Of a stretch of 64,000 bases of DNA, positions 20,733 through 45,468 are shown one piece after another. Source of the stretch: Candidatus Limnocylindrales bacterium (GTDB lineage Bacteria; Desulfobacterota; Binatia; UBA1149; CAITLU01). The translations under genes and the position numbers were made by a program. Within the stretch, counting starts at the first letter, position 1. The number at the start of each line of letters is the position of its first letter. The stretch lies in assembly GCA_035571835.1 (NCBI GenBank), contig DATNBU010000008.1, positions 124,001-188,000 of the forward strand. The letters run 5' to 3'. The notes beneath the pieces were generated by a model. That model was not told the origin of the DNA. It saw nothing but the letters and a program-made list of their open reading frames with translations, and did no database searches.

Positions 20733-22043
20733 TTAGCGCAGTCCATCTGACCGCATCCTCTCGACGCCCGCCGAAATCGTCGCCGACGCCAGCACGCACG
20801 CAAGCGGAATGAGCGCGAAGTGAAAGCGCTCCGAGCCGTAGAGAACGACTCCGTAGAAAGCGCTCCAGAGCACAAGAACGCTCAGGACGAGCCAGTAACC
20901 GCTGCGCGGGCCGTTCTGCGACGAGCGATCCGTGCTCACCAGGCCCATCGCCGCCGGAGCGGCGGCCAGCAGCAACAGCCAGTAAAAGAGATTGCTCGCG
21001 CGACCGAGCATCTCCATCGCAGCTTCTCCGATCGGCGGATGCGGTGCAGAGCCGCCAGCAGAAGCCGAAGGCTCGGCGTACCACTCATTCCAGACGCGAT
21101 CGCCGTGATACATCCGATAGAGCCGCCGGAAGACCAGTCCGAGCTCCGCGCGCGGATTTTCGAGCGCAAAGCGCACGCCGGCATCGCGAAGCCGGTTGTC
21201 GACGGCGAGCTCGCGCTCGGGCCCGCCGGCGATGAGATCGCGCTGGTCGGCGGCAGGGTCGGGGCTGTAAAGATTCATGCCGCCGTCGGCGACCGGATTG
21301 TGTCCGATCAGAAGCGTGCGCCCGAAGCTGGTTGACGCAGGCACGATGCGCCCGAACACGCGCGCATTGCGGACCAGCCACGGCGTCTGACAGGCAACGG
21401 CGCCGGCGACGGCGCACCCAAGCACCGCGATCGCGGCCGTTCGCCGCATGCGCTGCGTGAGCAGCACCAGCACCGGCGCAAACAGCAGCAACACCGCTTC
21501 GGCGCGCAGCAGGCCGGCAAGGCCGACCGCGGCGCCCCACAGAATCCACAGCACCGGCGAGCGCTGCCTCGATGGGTCGAGCAGGACGATCGCGCCAAGC
21601 ACGAGCGCCGTCATCATCGTCGTGAAGATCGTCTCGGTCAGCAGCAGCGACGAGAACAGGATCTGGCTCGGTGCGACGGCGATCAGCGCAGTCGCCACGA
21701 CCTGCGCACGCGTCGAGAACAGCGATCTCGCAATGAGCCCGGTCAGCCAGCACGTGATCGTTCCGGCAACCGCATTGAGCGCGAATCCCCATGCCGGATC
21801 CGGCGAGAGCGTCCGGTACAGCACCGAAAGGAGAAAAGGATAACCGGGCGGCCACGCGGCTGTCGGTTTTCCGGTGAAATGATGGATGTAGCCGTAGCCG
21901 GCGGCGAGGTTCGCAGCCGTCAGGTGGTACCACAGCGCGTCGGCATGAAGGACCGGAGTCGGAATCGTCAGCCACAGGTTCGCGGCAACTCGCAGAACGA
22001 ACGCCAGCGCGACGAGGAGACCGACTGCGCGCGCTGCAGGCAT
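20733..22043 (-). CDS. Membrane glycosyltransferase of GT39/ArnT-like type
   Basis: About 436 aa, with some ten hydrophobic segments. The N-terminal loop LHADALWYHLTAANLAAG after the first membrane segment resembles the acidic catalytic loop of GT-C enzymes, and the following WPPGYPFLLSVLY is a common GT39/PMT-family block. Such enzymes use polyprenyl-phosphate sugars to modify lipid A, proteins or glycans in the periplasm. The substrate cannot be inferred. The preferred ATG is 22043; an upstream in-frame start at 22100 would overlap the divergent rdgB start. It is divergent from rdgB. Confidence 0.78.
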   Translation of the reverse strand: MPAARAVGLLVALAFVLRVAANLWLTIPTPVLHADALWYHLTAANLAAGYGYIHHFTGKPTAAWPPGYPFLLSVLYRTLSPDPAWGFALNAVAGTITCWLTGLIARSLFSTRAQVVATALIAVAPSQILFSSLLLTETIFTTMMTALVLGAIVLLDPSRQRSPVLWILWGAAVGLAGLLRAEAVLLLFAPVLVLLTQRMRRTAAIAVLGCAVAGAVACQTPWLVRNARVFGRIVPASTSFGRTLLIGHNPVADGGMNLYSPDPAADQRDLIAGGPERELAVDNRLRDAGVRFALENPRAELGLVFRRLYRMYHGDRVWNEWYAEPSASAGGSAPHPPIGEAAMEMLGRASNLFYWLLLLAAAPAAMGLVSTDRSSQNGPRSGYWLVLSVLVLWSAFYGVVLYGSERFHFALIPLACVLASATISAGVERMRSDGLR

Positions 22044-22087
22044 CGCGTGCTCTTGCTTGGAGGACGTGTCCGTTGCAAGTGGCGCCG

Positions 22088-22678
22088 ATGAAGATCGCAT
22101 CGCTCGTGCTCGCCACCAGCAACAAAGGAAAGCTGCGGGACTTCCGGCTGCTGCTCGAAGGCTCGGGCGTCGGCGTGGAGCTCCCCGAAGACTACGGCGT
22201 CTCGCTCGACGTCGAAGAGACCGGATCCACGTTTATCGAAAACGCGCTGATCAAGGCCCGGGCGTTTGCGGCCGCGCTGCCGGATCGGGCGGTGCTGGCC
22301 GACGATTCGGGTCTCGTCGTGGACGCGCTCGGCGGCGAGCCGGGCGTACGGTCGGCGCGCTACGCGGGCGAGCCGTGCGACGACCACGCGAACAATCTCA
22401 AGGTGCTCGAGCGCATGAACGGCGTTTCCGATCGCCGTGCGGCATTCGTCGTGGTGCTTGCGCTGGTGCTTCCCGACGGCTCGGAGACGGTCGTCGAAGG
22501 CCGCTGCGAAGGCACGATCGCATACGAGGAGCGCGGCGCGAACGGTTTCGGCTACGACGCGATCTTCTTCCGAGAGGATCTCGGCTGCACGTTCGGCGAG
22601 GCGTCGCCGGCCGAGAAGAATGCGCGCAGCCACCGGGCAGCGGCGGTGCGCGAGCTGCTCGCTCGCCTTCGCGACTGA
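22088..22678 (+). CDS. rdgB: XTP/dITP diphosphatase (RdgB/HAM1)
   Basis: A 196-aa nucleotide-pool sanitising enzyme that hydrolyses XTP, dITP and ITP. Family blocks are LVLATSNKGKLRDF, ETGSTFIENALIKAR, LADDSGLVVDALGGEPGVRSARYAG, GFGYDAIFF and the C-terminal KNARSHRAAA. The length is normal. The ATG at 22088 gives the family start; a TTG at 22073 is in frame with GGAGG about 12 nt upstream and is an alternative. It converges with the PRC-barrel gene 11 nt downstream. Confidence 0.95.
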   Translation: MKIASLVLATSNKGKLRDFRLLLEGSGVGVELPEDYGVSLDVEETGSTFIENALIKARAFAAALPDRAVLADDSGLVVDALGGEPGVRSARYAGEPCDDHANNLKVLERMNGVSDRRAAFVVVLALVLPDGSETVVEGRCEGTIAYEERGANGFGYDAIFFREDLGCTFGEASPAEKNARSHRAAAVRELLARLRD

Positions 22679-22689
22679 CGACCGCAGCG

Positions 22690-22929
22690 TTACGCGGCGA
22701 CTACGATCCGCCCCGTCTTGAACGATCGCACCGACGACCAGGGGCAGGTTCGCTCATGCACCGCGCGGAAACCTAGCCGCTCGAGCCATCCCGCTTCGCC
22801 GAAGACGAGCTCGTCGACGACCATCGGAGATGGGCCGTGCTCGCCGCGACAGCGCAGATCGACCAGACGGCCCAGATGGCGGCCGCTTTCGTCGACGACT
22901 TCCGATCCCGCGATTTCGTTCAGCCGCAT
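22690..22929 (-). CDS. Small PRC-barrel protein, last gene of the PQQ/oxidase operon
   Basis: A 79-aa protein with a PRC-barrel pattern: RLNEIAGSEVVDESGRHLGRLVDLRC, then PMVVDELVFGEAGWLERLGF. PRC-barrels are small beta-barrels found in RNA-processing and photosynthetic proteins, often as stand-alone units of unknown role. It starts 8 nt after the preceding PRC-barrel gene and ends the minus-strand run before convergent rdgB. Confidence 0.65.
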   Translation of the reverse strand: MRLNEIAGSEVVDESGRHLGRLVDLRCRGEHGPSPMVVDELVFGEAGWLERLGFRAVHERTCPWSSVRSFKTGRIVVAA

Positions 22930-22937
22930 CGCACTGC

Positions 22938-23279
22938 TCACTCCGAAAGCGGCAGCCGCGAGATCCAGCGCGCCGCTCTTCGTTCTGCTGCGAGAAGTCC
23001 GAAGGACTCCGCGTGAAGCCGCAGCTCGACCTTGCAATCGACGGTGACCACCTCGTGCCACGGAATCTTCGTGGCGGCCGTGCCGAAGAGCTTGCGGATG
23101 ATCCAGCCGCCGAACGGCCAGAGCTCGGTTGCGGCGCTTCCGGGCCCGGCAACGATTGCGCGCACGCGGAGCTTTCCGCCCGCTTGTTCGAGCTCGAGGT
23201 CGTCGACCTTGCCGCAATCGATTCCATCGACGTCGACGAGCTGGTGATCGAGCACCATGCGAACCAGATCGAGGCTCAT
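22938..23279 (-). CDS. PRC-barrel domain protein
   Basis: A 113-aa protein opening MSLDLVRMVLDHQLVDVDG, a PRC-barrel-like pattern (LVDVDGIDCGKVDDLELE), followed by WPFGGWIIRKLFG and a C-terminal region without known motifs. The start ATG overlaps the NRAMP-like stop by ATGA, with GGAGG 6 nt upstream. The constant pairing with the transporter in this operon suggests a linked role, such as an accessory to the transporter, but nothing in the protein proves this. Confidence 0.7.
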   Translation of the reverse strand: MSLDLVRMVLDHQLVDVDGIDCGKVDDLELEQAGGKLRVRAIVAGPGSAATELWPFGGWIIRKLFGTAATKIPWHEVVTVDCKVELRLHAESFGLLAAERRAARWISRLPLSE

Positions 23280-24514
23280 ACGGCACCTCCATGGCTGAGA
23301 ATGAGAAGCGGAATGGCCGCCAGCGCGGCAAGCGACACTACCGCCAGGTAAAACCATCCGAGCCCGCTGGCGAGGCGGCCGTTGACGTGCGAACCCATCA
23401 CCCTGCGGTCGCGCGCGAACATCAGTACCGGCAGATACGTGAGCGGCAGGATGACGACCGCGAACACGATCGAATACTCGACGAGGCTGATCGGATCGAC
23501 GCCGGTCAGCATGACGAGACCGGCGATCACGAAGACGGCGATCCACGTCGACGTGAAGCGGGCAGCCTGCTGCGGACGCTGTTCCTTGCCCCACGGCCAG
23601 CCGAAGAACTGCGCAAGGTTGTATGCAACGGTGAGCGCGTTCTCGATGGCCGCGCCGGCGAACGCGAACAGCATCCCGAGAAGAGCCGTCAGAAGGCCCG
23701 CTTGCCCATAGAACGATGCCGGCGCCAGTGCAGCAGCGCCGGGCAGCTCCGGATCGATACCTTTCGGTGCGAGGAAGTCCGCGCCGACGATGACGAGCGC
23801 CACGGCAAGCACCGACCCGAGCACGAAGCCGATGCCGGCGACCATGCGGTTGGTGGTGACGTCTTCGGGTTTCCAGCCGTCCTCGATGGCACCGGACGCA
23901 TAGAAGTACGTCTCGTACGGAAGCATGATCGAGCTCGCGAGTGCGACGACGAAATACGCGTAGGTGATGCCGCTGTGCCCCGGGCCGAGCTGTGGAATGT
24001 TCGGAGCGAAGCTTGCGAGAAGCTTGGTCCAGTCGGGATCGAGACGCACGGCGGTCACCATGTAAGCGATCAGCAGCAGGCCGAGCAGACCGAAGACGCG
24101 TTCGATCCATTGCAGCGAAAGCAGCCAGACCGACGCGAGCAGCGCCAGCACCGACAGCACCAGCAGCAGCGCGTGCGGCCACGCGACGAGAAGCGACAGC
24201 ACCATCGCCATGCCGCCGATCTCGGCGGTGCACGTCAGCAGGCTCACGAGATTTGCCGCGACGAGCACGACGATGCCGACCGGAAACCCGGTGCGCGCAC
24301 GGATGATCGACATGACGGGCTGTTTGGTCACGGCCGCGATGCGCCCGGCCATCTCGCCGTAGACGATGATGCCGATCGTGCCGAGGAGCACGACCCACAG
24401 CAGGCTGTAGCCGAATTTCGCACCGGCCTGCACCGAAAACACGAGCTCGCCGACTTCGACGAATCCGCCCATCGCCGTCAGGATGCCGAGGAAAATTTCG
24501 AGGAACTTGCTCAC
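23276..24514 (-). CDS. Divergent NRAMP-family metal transporter with altered metal site
   Basis: A 412-aa polytopic membrane protein aligning with NRAMP (Mn2+/Fe2+ symporters): FSVQAGAKFGYSLLWVVLL after TM1 and YGEMAGRIAAVTKQ after TM2. The metal-binding DPGN of TM1 reads EVGE (20-23) and the TM6 MPHN reads LPYE (198-201), so Asp, Asn, Met and His ligands are replaced, largely by carboxylates and Leu/Tyr. This argues against classic Mn/Fe transport and would suit a harder ion. Start GTG overlaps the upstream stop (GTGA). It sits in the operon of a lanthanide-type alcohol dehydrogenase, so lanthanide or calcium transport is a speculative possibility. Confidence 0.75.
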   Translation of the reverse strand: MSKFLEIFLGILTAMGGFVEVGELVFSVQAGAKFGYSLLWVVLLGTIGIIVYGEMAGRIAAVTKQPVMSIIRARTGFPVGIVVLVAANLVSLLTCTAEIGGMAMVLSLLVAWPHALLLVLSVLALLASVWLLSLQWIERVFGLLGLLLIAYMVTAVRLDPDWTKLLASFAPNIPQLGPGHSGITYAYFVVALASSIMLPYETYFYASGAIEDGWKPEDVTTNRMVAGIGFVLGSVLAVALVIVGADFLAPKGIDPELPGAAALAPASFYGQAGLLTALLGMLFAFAGAAIENALTVAYNLAQFFGWPWGKEQRPQQAARFTSTWIAVFVIAGLVMLTGVDPISLVEYSIVFAVVILPLTYLPVLMFARDRRVMGSHVNGRLASGLGWFYLAVVSLAALAAIPLLILSHGGAV

Positions 24515-24852
24515 CGCGGTCGCTCACCGCCGGCGCAGCGCCGTTCGGCCAGGGCTTTTTTCAGCGCATGGCCGTCGGGGTCCTGCTTGCGCACGCGCCC
24601 GGATGCATCCGTGATCTTCTCATCGAGGAGGCGCGCCTCGGTCGCATGAAAGTCTCGCGTCAGGCGGCCTTCGCCTGCAAGACCGGCCAGCGCGCACTCT
24701 TCGTGTGCAGCGCTTTCAATCTCACGTGTCGCAATGGCGATCTTCTGTTCGCGCCCGCCGGCGCCGGCGGCGAGCGACCACACGCCGGCTCCGACCGCGA
24801 GGACGGCGACGGAGCGAAGGATCGTTCTGGTCGCATGTGGAATCTGGTGCAT
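24511..24852 (-). CDS. Small exported or membrane-anchored protein of unknown function
   Basis: A 113-aa protein with one N-terminal hydrophobic segment (SVAVLAVGAGVWSLAAGA) followed by a charged, probably helical region with EREIES-like and LLDEKITDASGRVRKQDPDG stretches. I do not recognise it. It begins 4 nt after the beta-propeller stop and its stop overlaps the NRAMP-like start, so it is part of the operon. It could be a periplasmic anchor or chaperone for the transporter. Confidence 0.6.
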   Translation of the reverse strand: MHQIPHATRTILRSVAVLAVGAGVWSLAAGAGGREQKIAIATREIESAAHEECALAGLAGEGRLTRDFHATEARLLDEKITDASGRVRKQDPDGHALKKALAERRCAGGERPR

Positions 24853-24856
24853 CGGG

Positions 24857-25870
24857 CTACTCCGCTACCACTATTCCCCACGGACCGTCGCCAGCCTTGA
24901 TCGTGGCTACGACCGTTTCGTTCTTCGTATCGATGACCGAAACGTCGTTCGAAAGGCCGTTGGCCGTATAGAGCTTGCTGCCGTCGCGCGTGAGCGCGAT
25001 GCCCCACGGACGCTGGCCGACCGCAATCTGCGAACGCACGCGGCGGGCATCGAGATCGACGACCGCAACGCTGTTGCCGCGTCCGGTGGCTACATAAAGA
25101 CGCTTCCCGTCGGGCGAGCACGCGACGCCTTTCGGTCGCACCAGAACGCCTTGCGCCTGTGAATCGGCGCCATCGAGCGCGATCGTATCGACGACGCTGT
25201 GAGTACGGGTATCGACGATCGAGACGGACGCACCGTTTTCCGCGCTGACGAACGCGAACGCACCGTCCGGGCTGAATGCGCTCTCGCGCGGCCGGGCGCC
25301 GACCAGGAACGACTTGACGACTTCGTCGCTGGTGGTGTCGATGACCGAGACTGTGCTGCTCGATTCCGACGTCACGTAGACCCAGCGGCCGTCGGGGCTG
25401 ACGGTGACGCCCTCGGGCTCGAGGCCGATCCAGCGCGTCACCGCCCGTCCTGTCGCAAGGTCCATGATCGATGCGGTGCCGGCGTCTTCGTTGGCGACGT
25501 AGAGCCGCCGGCCGTCGCGCCCGAGCGCGAAGCACTCGGGGTCGGTGCCCGCGGGGTAGTGCGCCACCGGCCGGAAGGAGCGGGCGTCGAGGCACAGGAT
25601 TTCTTCGCTGCCGGTGCGGGCGGTCGCCGTCTTGCTGAGAGCGATGCAGAAGCTGCGCCCGTCGGCGGCGAGGCCGACACCGCGCGGCCGCGAGCCGACG
25701 TCGAGCGTTTCCGCGACGCGGTCGGTCGCCGCGTCGATGACCGAGACGGTTCCGTCGCGTTCGTTGGTTACGAATACGAGCGGACCTGCGGGCGCCGCGT
25801 GGCAGCCGCACAGCAGCAGCACTGCCCATGACAGCAGACGCATGGAGGCCGATCCGGTCATGCCGGTCAT
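24857..25870 (-). CDS. YVTN-type beta-propeller lipoprotein
   Basis: A 337-aa lipoprotein (lipobox LCGC after RLLSWAVLLL) made of seven or so YVTN/NHL-like blades. Repeats such as VFVTNERDGTVSVIDAATDRV, VYVTSESSSTVSVIDTTSDEV and LYTANGLSNDVSVIDTKNETV recur about every 42 residues. Proteins of this kind (PQQ-associated beta-propellers) often accompany PQQ dehydrogenases in the periplasm; their role is uncertain. The start overlaps the CtaG stop by ATGA at 25867-25870. Confidence 0.82.
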   Translation of the reverse strand: MTGMTGSASMRLLSWAVLLLCGCHAAPAGPLVFVTNERDGTVSVIDAATDRVAETLDVGSRPRGVGLAADGRSFCIALSKTATARTGSEEILCLDARSFRPVAHYPAGTDPECFALGRDGRRLYVANEDAGTASIMDLATGRAVTRWIGLEPEGVTVSPDGRWVYVTSESSSTVSVIDTTSDEVVKSFLVGARPRESAFSPDGAFAFVSAENGASVSIVDTRTHSVVDTIALDGADSQAQGVLVRPKGVACSPDGKRLYVATGRGNSVAVVDLDARRVRSQIAVGQRPWGIALTRDGSKLYTANGLSNDVSVIDTKNETVVATIKAGDGPWGIVVAE

Positions 25871-26844
25871 GATACCTGCGCCTCCGCGGAAGCATCGGCT
25901 GCTGCGGCCGCGAGACGTTCGCGCGCAGCCATGCGTTGCTCGGAGTCGCGCAGCCACGCCAGCAGCAGCGCGAGCGCCGCCGCCGCATAAATCGCACCCG
26001 CCGGCACCCACATGATCAGGCCTCCGAGCTGCTGGTCTTCGAGCGGCGTCAGGCCCCACGCTGCAGTGGTGCCTGCGTACGCCGGATAGAGGCTGCGCCG
26101 CGCGAGCGACAGCAGCGCGCCGAGTGCTCCGCTGTGTGCAGCAGTCGTGAACAGGTAGAGGACCGCCGCGCCGTATCCTGCCGTGCCCGGACGTTCACGG
26201 ACGATCGCCCACCAGAACAGCAGCGCGGTCCCGAAGAAGCTGGCGTGCTGCAGGAAGTGGATCCACTCGTTGTCGATCGTCGATTCGAACAGGCGCGGAA
26301 CGTGCCAGATCCACAGCGCAGCCGCGTGAACGACCCATGCGACGAGCGGCAGCGTCAGCCACGCCCACAGGCGTCGCACTGCACCGAGCGGCCGCGAGCG
26401 TACGAACGCTGCCAGGCCGCGAAGGATCGCTGGCGACAGCGCACGCGAGAACGGAACCAGCGGCCGGCCGAGCACGAGCAGCGGCGCCGCAACCACCATG
26501 AGGATTTCGTGCTGCGCCATGTGTGCGGAGAACAGCAGGCGTCCCCACGGATGAAGCGGCGAGACCAGTGCGACCGCGAGCGCGAGCCAACCGAGCATGT
26601 ACGCGGCAACCTCCTTTCGATGAGCCGGAAGGCGAGGCGCAGATGCCGTCGACCACACCTGGCGCATACCCGCAATGTAGAGGGCGAGGCTCGCGAGAAG
26701 CGGGATCCAGATCCACCACTCGCTGCTCCACGGAAGGTCGGACAGATGCGCCGCGTGCTCGTCGACGTCTCCGTGCGCGGCTGCGACAGCGGGCAGCATC
26801 AGCGCGGCAGGTCCGAGGCAGGCGATGCGGCGCAGCGACGTCAT
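25867..26844 (-). CDS. ctaG: Cytochrome c oxidase assembly protein, CtaG (caa3 type)
   Basis: A 325-aa membrane protein with about seven hydrophobic segments matching the caa3-type CtaG family, needed for copper assembly of caa3 oxidase. Features are LHPWGRLLFSAHMAQHEILMVVAAPLLVLG, HxxxLWxWHxPxLFE, EWIHFLQHASFFGTALLFWWAI, and GGLIMWVPAG near the end, with conserved His residues likely binding copper. An N-terminal signal ends near AAAHGD. It lies 3 nt after coxC. Confidence 0.88.
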   Translation of the reverse strand: MTSLRRIACLGPAALMLPAVAAAHGDVDEHAAHLSDLPWSSEWWIWIPLLASLALYIAGMRQVWSTASAPRLPAHRKEVAAYMLGWLALAVALVSPLHPWGRLLFSAHMAQHEILMVVAAPLLVLGRPLVPFSRALSPAILRGLAAFVRSRPLGAVRRLWAWLTLPLVAWVVHAAALWIWHVPRLFESTIDNEWIHFLQHASFFGTALLFWWAIVRERPGTAGYGAAVLYLFTTAAHSGALGALLSLARRSLYPAYAGTTAAWGLTPLEDQQLGGLIMWVPAGAIYAAAALALLLAWLRDSEQRMAARERLAAAAADASAEAQVS

Positions 26845-26847
26845 CGC

Positions 26848-27450
26848 TCAGCCCATCCTCGGAACGAGATAGAGCGTCACGTAGCACGGGACCCAGATCG
26901 CGACGATGAAGTACCAGTAGAGTGCGTTGTCGGTAGCGTCCGTGAAGTAATTCGGCCGCGGATGGCGCGCGAGGAAGTACGTGAAGTAGACGGTCTCGAC
27001 GACTTCGGCGAAAAGATGCGACGTGTGCAGCCCGATGATCACCCACACCACCGAACCGTACGCGTTGGCGTCCCAGCGCACGTTGAGCCGGTCGAGCTCG
27101 ATCCAGCGCGAGATGACGAATGCGATGCCCAGCACGTCGCAGACGACATGTCCGGCCAGCGTCCGGCGAAGGTCGAACCGGCGTGCGGCCCGTTCGGTGA
27201 AGATCATGGCCGGGACACTGAGCAGCAGGAGTCCGAGCGTGACGGTTGCGGCGTCGAGGTTCGGCGGTGCAGTCGGCGGCGGAGGCCAGTGGACCTCGTT
27301 GCTGCGGAAGTAGAAGTAGCTGACGAGGCAGATCACGAGCATCGTCGTTTCGATCGCGAGAAAGCCGAGGATGCCCCACCAGAACAGGCTCCGGCTGTCG
27401 AAGGCGACGCGCGTCAGGCGCGAGACGTCGATGTCGCGCGCGCCGTTCAT
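26848..27450 (-). CDS. ctaE: Cytochrome c oxidase subunit III
   Basis: A 200-aa subunit III of the haem-copper oxidase, with five hydrophobic segments as in short bacterial forms: LFWWGILGFLAIETTMLVICL near the start, a Glu in that first helix, HTSHLFAEVVETVYFTYFLARHP in the middle, and DNALYWYFIVAIWVPCYVTLYLVPR at the end. The N-terminus overlaps the subunit I stop by 4 nt (27447-27450). Confidence 0.88.
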   Translation of the reverse strand: MNGARDIDVSRLTRVAFDSRSLFWWGILGFLAIETTMLVICLVSYFYFRSNEVHWPPPPTAPPNLDAATVTLGLLLLSVPAMIFTERAARRFDLRRTLAGHVVCDVLGIAFVISRWIELDRLNVRWDANAYGSVVWVIIGLHTSHLFAEVVETVYFTYFLARHPRPNYFTDATDNALYWYFIVAIWVPCYVTLYLVPRMG

Positions 27451-29399
27451 GCCGCGATCTCGCTCAGCCGCGCGAGCTCCTCGCGCGTCATGCGGGCGAC
27501 CGGTTTCATGCGGCACCGCCCTTCGCTGCCTCCCGGCGAAGCCCATCCGACGAGGGAAATGAAGACGAGCACCGCGCCGAGCGGCACGGCCCACGGCGTA
27601 AAGCAGCTCAGGATGAACGTGACGGTAGCCGACAGCGCGAGCATCATCGGCCAGATGCTCGGCTCCGGCAGCAGCGAGACGCTGTCGGGGCTGGCGTCGC
27701 TGGTGTGCGTCAGCAGGACCTCGCGGCAATCGGTGCGCAGGCCCGTCACTACCGGGTCGTCGTCACGCCTCGTCCACAGCGGCGCGCGCGAGCCCACGTA
27801 CGGCAGGTATGCGAAGTTGTACACGGGCGGCGGCGACGGCACCGACCATTCGAGCGAGTCGGCCATCCATGGATTGTCGCCCGCGGGCGCGCCGCGCCGC
27901 AGGCTCCACAGCATGTTGAAGACCATCGCCAGCACGCCGGCCGCAAGGATTGTCGCGCCGATCGTAGCGATCAGGTTGTCGGTGCCCCAGCCGGTTTCGG
28001 GGAGATACGTGTAGACGCGGCGGGGCATGCCGTGAAGGCCGAGCAGGTGCATCGGAAAGAACGTCAGGTTGAAGCCCGCGAACAGCAGCACGAAGCTCGT
28101 CACTCCGAGCGTCTCGTTCGTGAGCCGGCCGGTCATCTTCGGGAACCAGTAGTAGAGCGCGCCGAACAGCGGGAACATCGAGCCGCCGATCAGCACGTAG
28201 TGGAAGTGCGCGACGACGAAATAGGTGTCGTGCAGCTGCAGATCGAGCGGCTCGCTGGCCTGCATCACGCCGGTAAAACCGCCGAGGATGAACAGGAACA
28301 GGAAGCCGAGCACGAACAGCATCGGAACCCGCGGCACGATGCGACCGCTCCAGAGCGTTGCGGTCCAGCAGAACACCTGCACCCCGCTCGGCACGGCGAT
28401 CGCCATCGTGGATGCCGAAAAGAAGCTCGTTCCGAGCTGCGGCAGCCCGGTTGCGAACATGTGGTGCACCCACAGGCCGAAGCCGAGAAAAGCGACGGCG
28501 GATGCGGCGCTCACGATCGCGGGGTATCCGAACACCGGACGTCGAGTGAATGCCGGCAGCATGGCGGCGACGAACCCGGTGGCCGGAATGAAGACGATGT
28601 AGACCTCCGGATGCGCGAAGAACCAGAACAGGTGCTGCCACAAGAGAGGGTCTCCGCCCTCGGCCTGATTGTAGAAGTGCGTCGCGACGAGGCGGTCGGT
28701 CGTAAGGAAAAGGCTGCACGTCATGACGGCGGGCATCGCGAACACGACCATGAACGACGTGATGACCATCGCCCACACGAAGATCGGGATGCGGCCGAGC
28801 GACATTCCCGGTGCGCGCATCTTGAACGTCGTGACGATCAGCTCGATCGACGCGGCCAGCGCCGAGATCTCGGTAAAATTGATGAGCTGCGACCAGATGT
28901 CGACGCGCTTGCCAGGTGAGAACGCAGGCCCGGCCAGCGGCACGTACATGAACCAGCCCGCGTCCGGCCCGATATTGAGCAGGAAGAACGTGAACAGCGT
29001 GATCCCGCCGAACAGGAACAGCCAGTAGCTGAATGCGGCAAGGCGCGGGAATGCGACGTTGCGCGTGCCGATCATCAGCGGCACCAGGTAAAGGCCCATC
29101 GCTTCCATGACCGGTATGGCAAACAGGAACATCATCGTCGTGCCGTGCATCGTGAAGATCTGATCGTAGAGGTCGGGGCCGACGAAATGGTTGTCGGGGC
29201 GCGCGAGCTGGATGCGCATCATCAGCGCCAGCACGCCGCCGAGCGCGAAGAAGACGAGCGCGGTCACGATGAAGCGCATCCCGATCTCCTTGTGATCGAC
29301 CGTAGTCAGCCAGCCCCACAGGCCCGGCGGCCGGCGCCACGTACGCTCGAGCTCGGCCTCGTCGAATTCGACCAGCGGTTCGGCGGCTGCGGCGCTCAT
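27447..29399 (-). CDS. ctaD: Cytochrome c oxidase subunit I (A1-like)
   Basis: A 650-aa catalytic subunit. Low-spin haem ligands are His85 (FTMHGTTMMF) and His400 (AHFHY); high-spin haem His398; CuB ligands His263 (AHPEVY), His312 and His313 (WVHHMF); the His-Tyr crosslink Tyr is Tyr267. The Glu of HPEVY is present, as in A1-type oxidases with a D-channel. After about residue 560 there is a C-terminal extension with extra hydrophobic segments (TPWAVPLGAVLVFISLVGW), resembling a fused subunit IV-like tail. The start overlaps the coxB stop. Confidence 0.93.
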   Translation of the reverse strand: MSAAAAEPLVEFDEAELERTWRRPPGLWGWLTTVDHKEIGMRFIVTALVFFALGGVLALMMRIQLARPDNHFVGPDLYDQIFTMHGTTMMFLFAIPVMEAMGLYLVPLMIGTRNVAFPRLAAFSYWLFLFGGITLFTFFLLNIGPDAGWFMYVPLAGPAFSPGKRVDIWSQLINFTEISALAASIELIVTTFKMRAPGMSLGRIPIFVWAMVITSFMVVFAMPAVMTCSLFLTTDRLVATHFYNQAEGGDPLLWQHLFWFFAHPEVYIVFIPATGFVAAMLPAFTRRPVFGYPAIVSAASAVAFLGFGLWVHHMFATGLPQLGTSFFSASTMAIAVPSGVQVFCWTATLWSGRIVPRVPMLFVLGFLFLFILGGFTGVMQASEPLDLQLHDTYFVVAHFHYVLIGGSMFPLFGALYYWFPKMTGRLTNETLGVTSFVLLFAGFNLTFFPMHLLGLHGMPRRVYTYLPETGWGTDNLIATIGATILAAGVLAMVFNMLWSLRRGAPAGDNPWMADSLEWSVPSPPPVYNFAYLPYVGSRAPLWTRRDDDPVVTGLRTDCREVLLTHTSDASPDSVSLLPEPSIWPMMLALSATVTFILSCFTPWAVPLGAVLVFISLVGWASPGGSEGRCRMKPVARMTREELARLSEIAA

Positions 29400-30439
29400 C
29401 GCAGTGTCTCCAGCCACGCGGCGAGGTCGTCGAGATCGGCGCCTTGCATCGGCACCTGCGGCATCCTGTTTCCGGGCTTGACCGACTGCGAGTCGGTGAT
29501 CCACGCGAACAGGTGCGCGCGCGTGTTCGGGATGGTTCCGGCGCCGAGCGTGCGGCGGCTTGCAAGATGGGTGAGCTCCGGCCCGGCGCGGCTTGCGGCC
29601 ATCGTGCCGCGCACCGTGTGGCACATGACGCACGGGCCGGATGTGAAGACTTGGCGTCCGTGGATCTCCTTTTCTCCGGTCGGCTCCGGCGCCGGCTCGC
29701 GTTCGTGGACGAGCCAGCGCGCGAAGTCCTCGTCGCTCTCGGCAACGACGACGATGCGCATGTGCGCGTGCTGGAGGCCGCAGAATTCCGCGCACTGCCC
29801 GACATATTCGCCGGCACGCTCGGCGCGGATCACCACGTGGTTGTTGCGGCCCGGAATCAGGTCGCGTTTCCCTGTGAGATTCGGGATCCAGAAGCTGTGG
29901 ATCACGTCCGCCGAGACGAGATGCAGGTCCACCGTCTTTCCGACCGGCACGTGAAACTCGTTGGCAGTCACGAAGGTGTTGGACGCGACCGGATCTTCGT
30001 ACTCGATCTCCCACCACCACTGGTGACCGGTCACCTTCATGCGGACGTCGACATTGGACGACAGCGCGACGACGGCGTGCCCGACCGAAAGGCTGACCGC
30101 CAGGAACACCACGAGAAGCAGAGTGGTCAGCACGGCATTTACGGCGACGATCTTTGCGAGCCGGCGCTCGCGCGGCTCATCCGGCGGCGGGATGCTGAAG
30201 CCGTCCGCCACGCGAGTCGCGCGCCGCACGATGACGAAGACGAGCAGCGCGCCGATCAGAACATAGAGAACCGACAGCGTGCCGCCGATCCACCACCACA
30301 GCTTCGACGCGAGGCGCGCCCCTGCACCGGCCGGTTCCAGAACGGATGACGCCGCCGCAGATGTCCGCACCGAGAGGGCAGTGAAAGCAGCCGACCACGC
30401 GATGCCCAGGCCATGTCGGATCGCGCAGCGCATCGTCAT
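29396..30439 (-). CDS. ctaC: Cytochrome c oxidase subunit II with fused haem c (caa3 type)
   Basis: A 347-aa subunit II. There are two transmembrane segments (about 48-72 and 97-120), the aromatic GHQWWWEIEY stretch, and CuA ligands His181, Cys216, Cys220, His224 and Met227 in QCAEFCGLQHAHM. A C-terminal cytochrome c domain carries CVMCH (270-274) and a PQVPM axial Met region. The fused haem marks the oxidase as caa3. It takes electrons from cytochrome c, plausibly the protein encoded just upstream. Confidence 0.93.
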   Translation of the reverse strand: MTMRCAIRHGLGIAWSAAFTALSVRTSAAASSVLEPAGAGARLASKLWWWIGGTLSVLYVLIGALLVFVIVRRATRVADGFSIPPPDEPRERRLAKIVAVNAVLTTLLLVVFLAVSLSVGHAVVALSSNVDVRMKVTGHQWWWEIEYEDPVASNTFVTANEFHVPVGKTVDLHLVSADVIHSFWIPNLTGKRDLIPGRNNHVVIRAERAGEYVGQCAEFCGLQHAHMRIVVVAESDEDFARWLVHEREPAPEPTGEKEIHGRQVFTSGPCVMCHTVRGTMAASRAGPELTHLASRRTLGAGTIPNTRAHLFAWITDSQSVKPGNRMPQVPMQGADLDDLAAWLETLR

Positions 30440-30987
30440 TTCCCCGCCGGCGGCGGCGGCGGCGCGCTCGCGACCGGAGGCTGCACCGGCGTGGACTGCT
30501 CCTGCTGCTTGACGTTGATGTGGTCATCGCGCGTCGGCGCCGCATTGCGCGAAACATTGCCGCTGAGCGACCGTACGTAGGCGACCAGCTCCCAGACCTG
30601 GTTGTCGGGGATCTTTCCTTTGAACGACGGCATACCGTTCGGACGGCCTTCGACGATGGTCGCGAAGACCTGCTCGGGCGCCGCGCCGTAGATCCACTTG
30701 TCGTCCATCAGCGGCGGTCCCATGCCGCCGCCGCCCTGCGCGTGGCAGCCCGAACAGTTCATCCAGTTGAAAAGCCGTTTGCCCTCGCTCATCGCGAACG
30801 CGTTGTCTTCGTAGTCGTTGTGGACGGGCGTGGGCGGCGGCGGTGAGCCGGGATGCAGCTCGGAAAGCCTTTTCGCGTCGATGCGCGCGGCGTCGGGCGG
30901 CTCGACGCGGAACGAGCGCTCCTCGCGCTTACATGCCGCGCAGAGCACGAGGCAGATCGCGATCGCCGCGCCTCCGCAGGTCCTCAT
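30436..30987 (-). CDS. Cytochrome c lipoprotein
   Basis: A 183-aa lipoprotein (lipobox LCAAC, Cys19) with one class I haem c domain: CSGCH (78-82) and axial Met in GMPSF. The tail is Pro/Ala-rich. By position between the PQQ dehydrogenase/XoxJ genes and the oxidase it is the likely carrier that takes electrons from PQQH2 to CuA, playing the role of XoxG/cytochrome cL; that is inference. It overlaps both neighbours by 4 nt. Confidence 0.88.
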   Translation of the reverse strand: MRTCGGAAIAICLVLCAACKREERSFRVEPPDAARIDAKRLSELHPGSPPPPTPVHNDYEDNAFAMSEGKRLFNWMNCSGCHAQGGGGMGPPLMDDKWIYGAAPEQVFATIVEGRPNGMPSFKGKIPDNQVWELVAYVRSLSGNVSRNAAPTRDDHINVKQQEQSTPVQPPVASAPPPPPAGK

Positions 30988-31970
30988 GTGCCGCCTCCGC
31001 TCCCCGGGTGGTCCGCATTGACCGCATGATCGCGGACGAGAAGATCGGCGCCGGTCGGAGAGGGCGCGACAGGCGCCGGTGCGCGCGGCACGCCGTAATC
31101 GTCGAGGATGCGACCGATCGCACCGCGCTCGCGCACGAGGATCCGGTCGAGCTCGTCGCGCAGCGGCTCCTCACCGCGGCGCACGCCCATCGAGATGTCG
31201 TACGCGAACGGCAGGAACGGCTGGTCGACCTGCGGAGAGACGGGGGCGAGCGCCAGCGGAACCGAAGCGGTCTTTGCGAAATAACCGGCGAGCGGCCCCC
31301 AGACCACCGCGACATCGACGTCCGAAGCAGCGACTGCGCGCACGATGCGCGCCGACGGATTCGGCTCGGCGTAGTTGCCGTAGACGGTGTAGCCGACGAT
31401 GTTGTCGATGACGTTGCGCCTGGCCAGTGCGTGTGCCGGCGGCGAGTTGTTGCCGTCGTCGCCGATCAGCTGCACGCCGACGCGAAGCGCATGAAGCCTC
31501 GGATCGTCGAACGAGCGGATGTCGAGACCGCGGTCGGCGCGCGAGACGAAGACATAGATCGACCGGTAATACGGCGCGGTTGCGAGCACCATGTCGAGCG
31601 CCGACGGCACTCCGATCACCACGTCGCAGAGTCCGGCCTTGAGTGTGTTGCGCAGGAACCCGCGGCGCTGCGCCCACCACGTGTACTGGACGTCGATGCC
31701 GAGGTCGGCCGCGATCAGCCGCGCGATGCGGTTCTCGAAGCCTTCCTCGCGCTCGTTCGAAAACGGAAGATTGTTCGGATCGGCGCAGACGCGAAGGTGC
31801 TCGCGCTTGACCGATACGGATGGCGGTTTGGGAGGCGACGGCTGGTCGGGCTCGGCCGGACATCCCTGGATGAACAGAAGCATTGCCGCGAGCAGCGCGC
31901 CGCTGAGCATGCACTGTGCGTCGCAGCCGGCCGCGGCACGCGAGTCGCGGCTATGGAAGCGCAAACGCAT
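30984..31970 (-). CDS. xoxJ: XoxJ/MoxJ-like periplasmic binding protein
   Basis: A 328-aa lipoprotein (lipobox IQGC) of the solute-binding-protein fold found beside PQQ methanol dehydrogenases. Key blocks are LRVCADPNNLPFSNEREEGFENRIA, YTWWAQRRGFLRNTL and CDVVIGVP, which match the quinoprotein dehydrogenase-associated substrate-binding family (XoxJ/MxaJ). XoxJ is thought to help activate XoxF. AAAGGAGG lies 8 nt upstream of ATG 31970, inside the end of the dehydrogenase gene, and the two overlap by 20 nt. Confidence 0.88.
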   Translation of the reverse strand: MRLRFHSRDSRAAAGCDAQCMLSGALLAAMLLFIQGCPAEPDQPSPPKPPSVSVKREHLRVCADPNNLPFSNEREEGFENRIARLIAADLGIDVQYTWWAQRRGFLRNTLKAGLCDVVIGVPSALDMVLATAPYYRSIYVFVSRADRGLDIRSFDDPRLHALRVGVQLIGDDGNNSPPAHALARRNVIDNIVGYTVYGNYAEPNPSARIVRAVAASDVDVAVVWGPLAGYFAKTASVPLALAPVSPQVDQPFLPFAYDISMGVRRGEEPLRDELDRILVRERGAIGRILDDYGVPRAPAPVAPSPTGADLLVRDHAVNADHPGSGGGT

Positions 31971-33825
31971 AGAGCGTGCCTCCTTTTGTGCTTTTGTCGA
32001 GGAGGTCGGGCACCGCGCCGACGAAACCGAGCGCGGCCGACTGATCGCGCGGATCGAGGTCGCCGGCGACGATCGCACCGGACCAGCCGCCGACTCCCGA
32101 AAGTACAGCAACGTACTGGCGACCGTCGGGTGCGCGGTAAGTGATCGGCTGTCCGATGATTCCGGAGCCGGTCTTGAACTGCCACAGAAGCTCGCCGGTG
32201 CGCGCATCGAGCGCCTTGAACCAGCCTTCCATCGTTCCGTAGAAAACGATGTCGCCTGCCGTCACGAGCGCGCCGCTCCACACCGGCAGATCTTCCTTGA
32301 TCTGCCACACGACCTTCGCACCGACCGGATCCCACGCGGTAAACAGGCCGCGGTTTCCCTCGGGCCCCGCATGCATGCGCACTTCGGCGCCGACGTACGG
32401 CGTGCCGGCAATGTAGTTGGCCGACATGCCTTCGAAGTCCATGCAGAGGTTGTTGTGCGGCAGGTAAAGCAGCCCGGTCTTCGGCGAGTACGCCGATGGA
32501 TTCCAGTCTTTCGCTCCGGGCGCGGCCGGGCAGATGTCGCGCACGACCTTGCCCATGACCGGTTTCATTTCGTCGATGTGCAGCAGCTCGCCGGTTTTGA
32601 GGTCGACGCCCTTGGTCGCGGTGTTGTGGACGAATCCCGTCGCCGACAGGAGCTCGCCGGTCGCGCGATCCATCACGTAGATGTAGCCGTTGCGCTCCGG
32701 CCGGATGAGGACCTTGCGTTTGGTACCGCCGATCTCGAGCTCGGTCAGGATCTGCTCGTTGATCGCGTCCCAGTCGTACAGGTCGTGCGGGCTGAACTGG
32801 TAGAACCAGCGCGCCTGGCCGCTGTCGAGATCGCGCGCCCACAGGCCGCATGTCCACTTGTTGTCACCCGGTCTCTGGTCGGGATTCCACGGACCGCCGT
32901 TGCCGGTGCCGTAGAAGATCGCGTTGGTTTCGGGATCGTATGAGATCCATCCCCACACCGTGCCGCCGCCGATCTTCCACGCATCGGGCGGCCACGTGCT
33001 GACGCCGAGATCCTTGCCGCGATCCTTTGCGTAGAACGGATGGAAGTCGGCGCCGATCAGGCAATCCGAATCCGGACCGGTGTTGTATGCTCGCCATGCG
33101 ACCTTGCCGTCGCTGGTGTAGAGGGCCGTCAGCCATCCGCGCACGCCCATCTCGCCGCCGCTGTTTCCGATGAGGACCTTGTCCTTGACCACCAGCGGCG
33201 CCATCGTGATCGTCTCGCCGTTGTTGATGTCTCCGAGGCTCGTCTTCCAGACTTCGCGTCCGGTCGCGGCGTCGACGGCGACGGCGTTGCCGTCGAGCGT
33301 GTTGTAGAAGAAACGCCCGTTCGAATAGACGCCGCCGCGATTGACGACGTCGCAGCACGCGACCCCCTGCGAAGCACTCTTCGGTTCGGGATCGTACTTC
33401 CATTTGAGTGGTGCACCGGGCTTCGACAGATCGAGCGCAAAAAGCGTGTTCGGGTACGGTGTGGTGATGTACATCGTGTCGCCGGCAACGATCGGCGCTG
33501 CCTCGGCGCCGCGATTGAGGCCGGTCGAGAACGTCCACGCGACCTGCATCTGCTTGACGTTGGCCGCGGTGATCTGGTCGAGAGCGCTGAAGCGCGTGCT
33601 CGAGTAGTCCTTCGCGGGCATCGTCCACTGGCCGTCGTCGTGGATGTCGCCGGGGTGATACTCCGGCCGCGGCGCGGTCGCGGCCACAGCCGGCTTACTT
33701 GTCTGATCCGGTGCGCGACGCGTCGGCGGCAGGTACTTCGAACACGATACGGTCAGCAGGCATCCGGCGACGCCCAGCCATCGAGGCCTCGTTTGGAGCA
33801 CCCAGGATTTCGCCACGACATACAT
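31951..33825 (-). CDS. xoxF: PQQ-dependent alcohol dehydrogenase, lanthanide (XoxF/ExaF-like) type
   Basis: A 624-aa eight-bladed quinoprotein alcohol dehydrogenase. The vicinal disulfide ACCDVV (Cys157-Cys158), GGEMG (Glu225), TGNGGPWNPD (Asn309) and the catalytic HDLYDWDAINE (Asp351) are present. The extra Asp353 two residues after the catalytic Asp is the hallmark of lanthanide-dependent enzymes; calcium enzymes have Ala there. The signal segment ends near TVSC (Cys28), probably a lipoprotein. It could act on methanol or larger alcohols; I cannot distinguish. It is the first gene of the twelve-gene operon to 22690. No clear ribosome binding site precedes ATG 33825; a TTG at 33843 is an alternative. 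Confidence 0.92.
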   Translation of the reverse strand: MYVVAKSWVLQTRPRWLGVAGCLLTVSCSKYLPPTRRAPDQTSKPAVAATAPRPEYHPGDIHDDGQWTMPAKDYSSTRFSALDQITAANVKQMQVAWTFSTGLNRGAEAAPIVAGDTMYITTPYPNTLFALDLSKPGAPLKWKYDPEPKSASQGVACCDVVNRGGVYSNGRFFYNTLDGNAVAVDAATGREVWKTSLGDINNGETITMAPLVVKDKVLIGNSGGEMGVRGWLTALYTSDGKVAWRAYNTGPDSDCLIGADFHPFYAKDRGKDLGVSTWPPDAWKIGGGTVWGWISYDPETNAIFYGTGNGGPWNPDQRPGDNKWTCGLWARDLDSGQARWFYQFSPHDLYDWDAINEQILTELEIGGTKRKVLIRPERNGYIYVMDRATGELLSATGFVHNTATKGVDLKTGELLHIDEMKPVMGKVVRDICPAAPGAKDWNPSAYSPKTGLLYLPHNNLCMDFEGMSANYIAGTPYVGAEVRMHAGPEGNRGLFTAWDPVGAKVVWQIKEDLPVWSGALVTAGDIVFYGTMEGWFKALDARTGELLWQFKTGSGIIGQPITYRAPDGRQYVAVLSGVGGWSGAIVAGDLDPRDQSAALGFVGAVPDLLDKSTKGGTLYAFALP

Positions 33826-33964
33826 GGAGGACGCTCGTTGCACGCGCGTTCGACGGTGCGGCGAGCAAACAGTTTAGAGAAAATTTCCGGACGTCCGCCA
33901 GTAGGCACGCGATGGCGAGCGACATTGTGACGCGGATGCGCGGCGCATCCGCGTGTGAACGGCA

Positions 33965-34825
33965 TCAACGTTCGGTGACGGGCCGCGTCGGAGGGACAAA
34001 GGTCAATCCGTCCTCCTCCGCTTCGAGCACATCTTCGGACAGGTCGCTTTCGTCGTCGTCGACCGCAGTTGCGGGAAGCTGATGCGCACGCGCAATGCGT
34101 TTGCGTTCAAAGGAAGGCCCACCTGCGACATCGGTCACCAGCAGCCGGTCGATCACCCGATAGCCCGCCTCGTCTTCCACGATGCGGCGCGCAATCTCCG
34201 GCAGCGTTTCGTTGGCGACCTCTCCGGCGAGAATCACGACGCCGTCTCGACAGAGCACGCGAACCGTATCGAGCGCTTCGCCGACCTCCGTCTGAAAAGC
34301 CTCACGGATTGTTTCCGCCACTTCCGCGTCGTCGAGTGCGCTCAGCTCGGGGGCGAGCGGGCTTCCGGCGCCTCCTTCCTCTTCATCGGGAGCAGAGTCG
34401 GGAATGTCCTCGTCGTGATCCTGCGGACGGTCGGACGCACGTCCGGACGGCGATGCCGGCGCCGCTTCGCGCTCGGCGGCGCACGCAGGGCACCACGGGG
34501 TCCACGGCTGTGCGTTCAGACGGGCGACGTCGATCACCTGACCGCAGCTCATGCACGTTCCGTATTCGCCGCGGTCGATGCGCTCGAGCGCGCCGTCGAT
34601 CTGCCGCAGCCGTGCATACTGCTGGGCACTGAGCCTCGTCAGCACGTCGGCGCTCTGCTCCTCCTGGGCCATCTCTTCCCACTCGATCTCACGCTCGGCG
34701 GAGATGTCGTCGAGCCCGTGTTCGGCGTCTGCGCGTTCGCGCACGAGGTCGTGTCTGGCTGCGAGCAGCGCTTCCTCGATGCGCTCGATTGTGGGGCGAT
34801 CCGGATGTGCAGGATGTCCGTTCAT
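33965..34825 (-). CDS. DksA/TraR zinc finger protein fused to a BON domain
   Basis: A 286-aa protein with two parts. The N-terminal coiled coil (about 1-90, LLAARHDLVRERADAEHGLDDI) and the CMSC...CPAC zinc finger (about 91-117) match the DksA/TraR family, which alters RNA polymerase. An acidic linker (about 120-155) joins a C-terminal BON domain (TIREAFQTEVGEALDTVRVLCRDGVVILAGEV then IARRIVEDEAGYRVID), usually found in envelope or periplasmic proteins. It has no signal peptide. The fusion is unusual. It sits upstream of the PQQ operon on the same strand with a ~140-nt gap. Confidence 0.8.
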   Translation of the reverse strand: MNGHPAHPDRPTIERIEEALLAARHDLVRERADAEHGLDDISAEREIEWEEMAQEEQSADVLTRLSAQQYARLRQIDGALERIDRGEYGTCMSCGQVIDVARLNAQPWTPWCPACAAEREAAPASPSGRASDRPQDHDEDIPDSAPDEEEGGAGSPLAPELSALDDAEVAETIREAFQTEVGEALDTVRVLCRDGVVILAGEVANETLPEIARRIVEDEAGYRVIDRLLVTDVAGGPSFERKRIARAHQLPATAVDDDESDLSEDVLEAEEDGLTFVPPTRPVTER

Positions 34826-35026
34826 GGAAACCGCCAGGCGGCGCGGGATTTGGGGCGCGCCGACATGCGGACGTTAGGCCCGCGGCCGACGTGCCATCAA
34901 GGCAGTTCGCTGCCGCGAAACCGTGGCGGCCAAGAAATGCGACGGCCGTGCGTGCTCTCTTCGCCGGCCTTGTGCCCTCGGCCGGACGCTTTGCATTCGC
35001 GGGGTGGGCCGACGGCACTCTCAAAC

Positions 35027-35062
35027 CGGTACGGGTTTCGCACTAGTGCGAAACCCGTACCG
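35027..35062. repeat. Perfect 36-bp palindrome
   Basis: The sequence reads CGGTACGGGTTTCGCACT then its exact reverse complement, with no loop, centred at 35044/35045. It lies between the DksA-like gene start and the response-regulator stop, just upstream of the repeat at 35102. It can form a cruciform or a hairpin and may act as a terminator or a binding site. No T-run follows. Confidence 0.85.
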
Positions 35063-35101
35063 ATCCCGAATTGCAAAAAATCGCTGTGCGTTTTCGGTGG
35101 G

Positions 35102-35151
35102 AAATCGGGGTCAGACACCGATTTCCGGAAATCGGAGTCTGACCCCGATTT
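35102..35151. repeat. 50-bp palindrome, AAATCGGGGTCAG family, copy 2
   Basis: Arms AAATCGGGGTCAGA and TCTGACCCCGATTT, meeting at TTTCCGGAAA, form a 25-bp stem with one mismatch. A run of T follows on the plus strand. It shares its core with the repeats at 8829 and 38616 (with TCAG instead of ACAG). It lies 20 nt downstream of the response-regulator stop and may also serve as its terminator. Confidence 0.85.
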
Positions 35152-35171
35152 TTTGAGGGCGTGGGCAGCGC

Positions 35172-35639
35172 TCAGACGGCGGCGTCTTCGTGGGGGCGGG
35201 CCTTGTTGAGGAACAGCCAGTAGAACCCGATGATGCGCGCCGCTTCGTGGAACTGCTCGAAGTCGACGGGTTTTACGATGTAGCTGTTGACGCCGAGGTT
35301 GTAACACTCGATTGCGTCGCGATCGAGACTCGACGACGTCAGCATCACGACCGGCAGCTCGTGCGTACGGGGGTCGGTGCGAATCCGCCGCAGCACCTCG
35401 ATGCCGTCGACGAACGGCATCTTGACGTCGAGCAGCACCACCTTCGGCAGGTCGGCGATCGACCGGTGCGCATAGCGATCGGTGCAGAACAGATACTCGA
35501 GAGCCTCGCGCCCGTCGTGCACGACGTGGATGCTGTTGACGATGCGGTGCTTGTTGAATGCCCGGATCGTCAGCTCGATGTCGTTGTCGTTGTCATCCGC
35601 CAGAAGGATGTCCACTGCATGGATTCCGTCGACGATCAT
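35172..35639 (-). CDS. Single-domain response regulator (Rcp1-like)
   Basis: A 155-aa receiver domain only: ILLADDNDNDIELT (acidic pair), phospho-Asp in VVLLDVKMPFVDGIEVLR, VVMLTSS (Thr) and YIVKPVDFEQF (Lys). The pattern is typical of Rcp1/CheY-like regulators paired with phytochrome-type kinases. It has no output domain, so it probably relays phosphate. Its start overlaps the kinase stop by ATGA, so kinase and regulator are coexpressed. Confidence 0.9.
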   Translation of the reverse strand: MIVDGIHAVDILLADDNDNDIELTIRAFNKHRIVNSIHVVHDGREALEYLFCTDRYAHRSIADLPKVVLLDVKMPFVDGIEVLRRIRTDPRTHELPVVMLTSSSLDRDAIECYNLGVNSYIVKPVDFEQFHEAARIIGFYWLFLNKARPHEDAAV

Positions 35640-38530: not shown

Positions 38531-38615
38531 GGCGGGTGAAACCCGGACTCTCCGCCGCGTTCCGAGCCGAAGCAAGAAAACCGTTGCGAATCTCGGCGTT
38601 GCGCCGCCGACGCAG

Positions 38616-38692
38616 AAATCGGGGACAGACACTGATTTAGCGAAATCGGGGACAGACACTGATTTCAGGAAATCGGGGCCTGTCCCCGATTT
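38616..38692. repeat. AAATCGGGGACAG repeat cluster, copy 3
   Basis: Two direct 23-bp copies beginning AAATCGGGGACAGACAC at 38616 and 38643 (27 bp apart), each with internal AAATC/GATTT symmetry, are followed by a hairpin AAATCGGGG-CCTGT-CCCCGATTT at 38670-38692 whose right arm can pair with the earlier copies. They lie between the divergent kinase and aminotransferase genes. Confidence 0.85.
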
Positions 38693-41757: not shown

Positions 41758-41834
<77 letters not shown>

Positions 41835-41859
41835 CTTTCGCGGACCGCTCCGCGTCGCT

Positions 41860-43926: not shown

Positions 43927-43927
43927 G

Positions 43928-45394: not shown

Positions 45395-45468
45395 GATTCG
45401 TTGTGCTCGGCGGGCTTTCCCGAACGGCTGTGACGGAAGCCCGCTGAGTTCCAGTACCTCCTATCCAG

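Follow-up and report, generated by a model that had tools for sequence, protein, structure and literature searches.

A XoxF3-type alcohol dehydrogenase operon with its own caa3 oxidase and an NRAMP-like transporter of altered site

Introduction

XoxF3 was the commonest XoxF in the weathered rock and soil that Voutsinos 2024 studied, with 340 of 411 sequences (PMC10875860; this and the other papers are cited from excerpts, to which our statements about them apply). Clusters reported there from Acidobacteria and Gemmatimonadetes combine XoxF3 with XoxG, XoxJ, cytochrome oxidase subunits Cox I-III, CtaG, a YncE beta-propeller and NRAMP amid small hypothetical proteins; the excerpts credit the linkage of cox and ctaG to an earlier review (Keltjens) and already propose lanthanide movement by NRAMP. 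XoxF systems are also reported in PMC10994693, PMC8262859 and PMC5023235, whose excerpts hold no XoxF3 together with an oxidase. XoxF3 is the sole XoxF of Methylobacterium oxalidis (PMC8561711), and that of Methylosinus trichosporium goes up with cerium (PMC12482762). Here we describe a twelve-gene cluster with the same components, located in a 64,000-nucleotide (nt) stretch of contig DATNBU010000008.1 (assembly GCA_035571835.1), which we call the window. Its products very probably oxidize an alcohol, methanol for instance, by means of a rare-earth enzyme and deliver the electrons to an oxygen-reducing enzyme encoded in the same cluster, whose NRAMP-like transporter makes a good candidate importer of rare earths.

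The window departs from the published clusters in host and in detail. Its named class relatives are labeled Proteobacteria (L076) or Deltaproteobacteria (L093, filed under Myxococcota), whereas the published hosts are Acidobacteria and Gemmatimonadetes; CoxC and CtaG lie 3 nt apart here, while a gene of about 110-130 amino acids (aa) separates them in many clusters of PMC10875860, and two PRC-barrel-like proteins of the window are likely counterparts of the hypothetical proteins described there. With the XoxF5/XoxG/XoxJ system of Methylobacterium extorquens it shares the lanthanide ligands, a XoxJ homologous to structure 6onp and a cytochrome partner, but it falls in the XoxF3 clade and has its own caa3 oxidase within the operon. 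The transporter has the NRAMP fold and has lost the selectivity methionine, as in EleNRMT (Mg2+) and SiNRAT (Al3+), yet its site reads ExGE-SxxL rather than the DxxG-TxxA/T of NRMT (PMC8806188) or the DxxN-AxxT of NRAT (PMC10115441). A role in lanthanide supply is supposedly shared with LutH/LanA, the lut cluster and lanmodulin (PMC12482762); LutH/LanA systems use TonB-dependent receptors and lanmodulin, whereas the window has an NRAMP-type transporter. New here are the altered NRAMP site, its setting among PRC-barrel and small proteins, and its co-occurrence with XoxF3 in Acidobacteria. The operon itself is of known type, and the transporter module is the part most worth bench testing.

A tight operon ordinary for its clade

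The twelve genes run on the minus strand from 33825 to 22690, the first at 31951-33825 and the last at 22690-22929. From gene 1 to gene 12 the junctions measure -20, -4, -4, -4, -4, +3, -4, +4, -4, -4 and +8 nt (negative values are overlaps), so the 4-nt overlaps of the original prediction are found at 7 of 11 junctions and the widest gap is 8 nt. The genes would be transcribed as a single mRNA. A consensus scan of 22500-34100, in itself weak evidence, gave no sigma-70-type match (shuffles, mean 1.0); terminator-like matches in the same interval, likewise weak evidence, numbered 7 and did not rise above shuffles (mean 6.3). No Rfam match reached the gathering score across 22000-36000.

A genome-contig scan yielded 234 confirmed relatives, from which the best 80 named loci were kept; 66 of these were usable (at least 7 kb downstream) and the other 14 were dropped before counting. 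The 80 loci are rich in Mesorhizobium and the counts are not independent. XoxJ was present at 65 of the 66 usable loci, CoxA within 9.5 kb at 64 and the full set of CoxA, CoxB, CoxC and CtaG at 62, with a beta-propeller match at 32 and an NRAMP-like gene at 9; the last include an incomplete frame on the opposite strand (L098) and two loci where the gene is divergent and upstream (L135 and L148). By label, CoxA was found in Pseudomonadota (46/48), Acidobacteriota (10/10), Gemmatimonadota (4/4), Rokubacteria (2/2), Myxococcota (1/1) and Planctomycetota (1/1), and was missing from L078 and L102. The oxidase lies 5' of the dehydrogenase, not 3', in the XoxF3 loci L093, L096 and L122, and upstream of it at one locus of genome G428. 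The linkage of oxidase and assembly factor, originally thought unusual, is thus the rule at these loci, and the arrangement, NRAMP included, is already in print (PMC10875860). Cultured relatives with a XoxF3 operon occur in Mesorhizobium, Sphingomonas and Methylobacterium, which makes the XoxF3 electron route testable.

At E 1e-130, 26 of the 148 genomes of the window's class have a match to the dehydrogenase. A search for the same gene order, as had been proposed, recovered it in full in G515, where tblastn found eleven of the twelve genes in identical order (dehydrogenase, XoxJ, cytochrome, CoxB, CoxA, CoxC, CtaG, beta-propeller, small gene, NRAMP-like, PRC1, PRC2), with a small gene in twelfth place and additional small genes. 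G018, of the window's family, has genes one to seven only, and G467, of its genus, has none of the order. Altogether, the operon is real and ordinary for the XoxF3 clade, and its arrangement is known from other soil bacteria.

The dehydrogenase

The first gene (31951-33825, minus strand) encodes a PQQ (pyrroloquinoline quinone)-dependent alcohol dehydrogenase of 624 aa that scores 627.4 bits against TIGR03075 (cut-off 480.05) and carries an adjacent cysteine pair, C157-C158. Its start was taken as the ATG at 33825; an in-frame GTG at 33843 is another possibility. The best solved relative is the methanol dehydrogenase 4mae (E 6.5e-189), which we take to be the lanthanide enzyme of Methylacidiphilum fumariolicum, followed by further methanol dehydrogenases including the XoxF 6oc5. 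The ligand set is of the lanthanide type, with E225, N309, D351 and the additional aspartate D353; both aspartates stand where they had been placed from the sequence, and the gene calls hold. Across 138 aligned rows, the window included and a few identical pairs among them, positions 225, 309 and 351 are invariant, while 132 rows have Asp at position 353, 4 have Thr and 2 have Ala. The Thr rows are four longer paralogs, two from the window's genome and two from G018. One Ala row, L164 (Methylobacter), best matches a solved large subunit of the two-subunit type of methanol dehydrogenase, and the other groups with it. In the window's genome three proteins exceed the TIGR03075 cut-off, and among them the lanthanide aspartate is confined to the window enzyme.

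In a 58-row tree the window enzyme pairs with G018 inside a 36-row clade that holds Methylobacterium oxalidis (Shimodaira-Hasegawa-like approximate likelihood ratio test [SH-aLRT] 98) and is separate from the XoxF5 row L162 (best match 6oc5) and from the MxaF rows; the tree was built by a quick method with SH-aLRT support alone and leaves out XoxF1, XoxF2 and XoxF4 references. Judged by sequence, the window enzyme is a PQQ dehydrogenase of the lanthanide type that belongs to the XoxF3 clade, and analogy with its relatives suggests both its lanthanide dependence and its substrate. The residue between the two aspartates is Trp (D-W-D), as reported for Methylobacterium XoxF3. We rejected this Trp as a general XoxF3 mark: the named relatives have Trp in 10 of 80, Tyr in 57 and His in 13. 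By eye only, the N-terminus of the enzyme (33742-33825), like that of G018/L014, could be a lipoprotein signal, with Gly, Ala or Ser before Cys; if real, it would tether the enzyme to the membrane. Viral contigs gave no match to the window dehydrogenase.

From the dehydrogenase to the oxidase

The second gene (30984-31970, minus strand) overlaps the first by 20 nt and encodes a XoxJ-like periplasmic binding protein of 328 aa (TIGR03871, XoxJ/MoxJ-like, 300.7 bits, cut-off 212.15), whose closest solved structure is XoxJ 6onp (E 5.5e-50). It is followed on the same strand by a c-type cytochrome of 183 aa (30436-30987) that matches PF13442 and PF00034 and has one CxxCH at residue 78 and is a putative XoxG. 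The next three genes encode an oxidase of the caa3 type. CoxB (29396-30439, 347 aa; TIGR02866, 153.5 bits, cut-off 147.7) has the CuA motif C216, C220, H224 and M227 and a cytochrome c domain fused at its C-terminal end, with CxxCH at 270. CoxA (27447-29399, 650 aa; TIGR02891, 695.9 bits, cut-off 670.75) has the expected heme and CuB histidines, with HPEVY at 263, HH at 312 and HxH at 398, and its C-terminal residues 580-619 are weakly subunit IV-like, below cut-off. CoxC, oxidase subunit III (26848-27450, 200 aa), is the weakest of the oxidase calls: it matches PF00510 at 28.9 bits (cut-off 23.8; E 1.3e-6), with NCBIfam matches under cut-off. The seventh gene (25867-26844) encodes a CtaG-type caa3 assembly factor of 325 aa (PF09678, 195.6 bits, cut-off 27.7; E 1.1e-57), and the eighth (24857-25870) a YncE-like, PQQ-catabolism-associated beta-propeller of 337 aa that falls just short of the TIGR03866 cut-off (286.6 against 287.3 bits).

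We propose that these genes form a XoxF3 respiratory operon in which alcohol oxidation is coupled to the operon's own caa3 oxidase, a reading that we hold at a probability of roughly 0.8. A periplasmic XoxF3 with PQQ and a lanthanide would oxidize an alcohol, most likely methanol, with XoxJ aiding its maturation or electron transfer. Electrons would then pass from the small cytochrome c to the cytochrome c domain of CoxB and on to CuA and CoxA, at whose active site oxygen would be reduced and protons pumped, and CtaG would assist copper loading. This order, from alcohol through PQQ, cytochrome c, CoxB heme and CuA to CoxA, is drawn from the protein families. An alcohol-to-oxygen module that bypasses quinone had been predicted; the presence of the families in one tight gene series is consistent with the module, while the quinone-free route via cytochrome c is shared by methanol dehydrogenases at large and does not set this module apart.

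The NRAMP-like transporter and the operon tail

The tail of the operon begins with a small protein of 113 aa (24511-24852, minus strand) that has one N-terminal hydrophobic stretch and no family match. It weakly resembles small anchored proteins encoded 5' of other NRAMP-like genes: a profile built from three relatives reached it at E 0.0007 (best shuffle 0.7, with 2004 sequences in the set) and L199 at E 0.008, while L150 and L197 were absent among the eight best matches listed and BLASTP found nothing significant.

The tenth gene (23276-24514) encodes the NRAMP-like transporter of 412 aa (PF01566, 157.5 bits, cut-off 29.8). Its structural model, a confident one (mean predicted local distance difference test [pLDDT] 89.6), breaks its helices at residues 17-20 and 197-198 and has the SLC11/NRAMP fold over the whole protein (Z 45.5, root-mean-square deviation [rmsd] 2.4, 378 residues aligned to 6c3i), with further matches to EleNRMT (7qji, Z 45.5) and SiNRAT (8ont, Z 38.5). 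In sequence, the closest solved protein is the Mg2+ transporter EleNRMT (E 2.4e-27). Aligned to canonical NRAMP, the DPGN of transmembrane helix (TM) 1 becomes E20-V-G-E23, and TM6 reads S195-I-M-L198-P-Y200-E201, so that the selectivity methionine is replaced by L198, a Met stands one residue ahead of the canonical place and the helix has LPYE. The protein thus shows ExxE and SxxL in place of the classical Mn/Fe motif (DxxN on TM1, A/CxxM on TM6), and it fits neither the Mg2+ motif of NRMT nor the Al3+ motif of NRAT.

The same site was compared in 16 rows, the window and 15 relatives, leaving out the NRMT-type L202 (a relative in G654, 27% identical), which does fit the NRMT motif. The first position is acidic in all 16 rows, and Asn is replaced in 15 (10 Ser, 3 Glu, 1 Gln, 1 Ala), as are Met (6 Ser, 5 Thr, 3 Leu, 1 Ala) and His. 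The motif is not uniform: Met is kept in L196, Asn in L199 and His in L201, and only the window, G515 and L087 (an Acidobacterium) combine E/DxGE with LPYE. In classical NRAMPs, loss of the methionine admits Ca2+, and NRAT has Thr there together with an added acid (PMC8806188, PMC10115441). In the excerpts searched we found no published site analysis of a XoxF3-linked NRAMP. The site sets the protein apart from the classical Mn/Fe transporters and is compatible with the metal transport originally suggested.

Two PRC-barrel-like proteins close the operon. PRC1 (22938-23279, 113 aa) has no PRC match itself, although 4 of the 10 proteins in its alignment do; its model is middling (pLDDT 74.5), with a PRC-barrel as best structural match (Z 8.1, rmsd 2.5, 70 residues aligned). 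PRC2 (22690-22929, 79 aa) matches PF05239 under cut-off (E 0.0014). By eye, PRC-like frames follow the transporter in most loci inspected, L196 being an exception, and in L200 a single 249-aa frame, immediately 3' of the NRAMP-like gene (7926-9140), seems to join both barrels.

Among 297 Acidobacteria genomes drawn, the NRAMP-like gene (E 1e-30) was found in 8, XoxF3 (at least 58% identity) in 8 and both in 6; relatedness ignored, Fisher's p is 8.6e-10, or 1.4e-8 with the 11 genomes that have XoxF3 at E 1e-180. The two genes are neighbors in G527 and G731; the cluster of G726 is interrupted by contig ends, with the NRAMP-like gene left beside CtaG (L200); and G576, G815 and G820 carry the pair on separate contigs. 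G654 and G819 are counter-cases with an NRAMP relative and no XoxF3 at threshold, as are G713 and G803 with XoxF3 and no NRAMP-like gene. Neighbors of unlinked NRAMP-like genes were listed as open frames only. In the window's class, the NRAMP-like gene occurs in 2 of 148 genomes, both with the full operon.

The tail would be a variable metal module, most likely handling a hard metal ion needed by XoxF3. We suggest, tentatively and as a doubtful case, that the small anchored helical protein, the transporter and the two PRC-barrels are a dedicated Ln3+ uptake system supplying XoxF3 outside the well-studied methylotrophs. The transporter would then represent a further NRAMP branch in which the soft methionine is gone and extra carboxylates or hydroxyls enter the site, a notion that we regard as equally speculative. 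The protein with its altered site is a concrete, assayable candidate for lanthanide passage across the inner membrane.

Alternative readings

Several observations weigh against a XoxF3 respiratory operon. The cytochrome matches MoxG weakly (40.5 bits, cut-off 147.8), and the window's genome has three full-length COX1-family genes, the operon copy counted, plus one fragment, so that other oxidases could take the electrons. XoxF3 systems are described as without experimental study (PMC10875860), and the lack of a dehydrogenase match at E 1e-130 in the same-genus G467 makes the system patchy. PQQ supply is a further point: in the window's genome (G000; 98.36% complete, 46 contigs) pqqC has no match, and pqqE has only matches far below its cut-off (95 bits at best, where 381 is required), of a kind that all 14 control genomes show as well. 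Both genes exceed cut-off in the same 7 of 16 genomes, which indicates that the searches work, and are under it in 9, including G000 and G018 (100% complete); G515, G401 and G731 have PqqC-like matches under cut-off. With neither gene found, the organism probably takes up PQQ from outside, and scavenging of PQQ is widespread (PMC12124388). G000 nevertheless encodes three PQQ alcohol dehydrogenases that exceed the cut-off of their family.

The patchiness shown by G467, the want of experiments on XoxF3 and the two further PQQ alcohol dehydrogenases of the genome also fit a non-methylotrophic heterotroph in which the main substrate is another alcohol or an aldehyde and the operon an auxiliary energy or detoxification route. 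This is a real possibility, though one we would bet against, given that the nearest solved relatives are methanol dehydrogenases and that M. oxalidis has XoxF3 as its only XoxF (PMC8561711). Chances only slightly short of even attach to the idea that the NRAMP-like protein is a mere passenger of the operon and supplies the cell at large with Mg2+, Ca2+ or Mn2+: among solved proteins it is closest in sequence to the Mg2+ transporter EleNRMT, related copies occur on their own (L196-L199 and L201, one of them in G819), and the gene is absent from G018 and from most named XoxF3 loci. Its site, which departs from the published NRMT motif (PMC8806188) in 16 of 16 rows, speaks against a passenger, as do the Acidobacteria co-occurrence (p about 1e-9, relatedness ignored) and the full operon in both NRAMP-bearing genomes of the class. 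That the genes are merely adjacent, the oxidase serving general respiration and the dehydrogenase using a shared cytochrome pool, would agree with all 15 f110 loci of the window's class, which have a PQQ dehydrogenase and XoxJ and no oxidase match in the fetched stretch, some ended by contig ends; the other eight f5 loci likewise gave no oxidase match within the fetched stretch. We consider mere adjacency improbable in view of the oxidase at nearly all usable XoxF3 loci, in six phyla as labeled, and of the 4-nt overlaps in the window.

Genomic surroundings

The operon is flanked 139 nt upstream by a minus-strand gene for a DksA/TraR-type zinc-finger protein with a BON-like stretch (33965-34825) and on its downstream side by a convergent Ham1-type gene (22073-22678). 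Further upstream, on the same strand, a response regulator and a large PAS histidine kinase (35172-38659) could regulate the operon. Near it, a minus-strand gene (17166-18905) encodes a LodA-type L-lysine epsilon-oxidase, presumably of another quinone-cofactor enzyme family. A tRNA-Pro and a tRNA-Arg lie at 41758-43200, adjoining a phage-type integrase (41860-43200, minus strand) whose end the tRNA-Arg call overlaps. GC content is 0.56-0.62 across 42-62 kb, compared with 0.62-0.68 for most of the remaining window, and, together with the tRNAs and the integrase, this marks about 42000-62000 as a probable genomic island.

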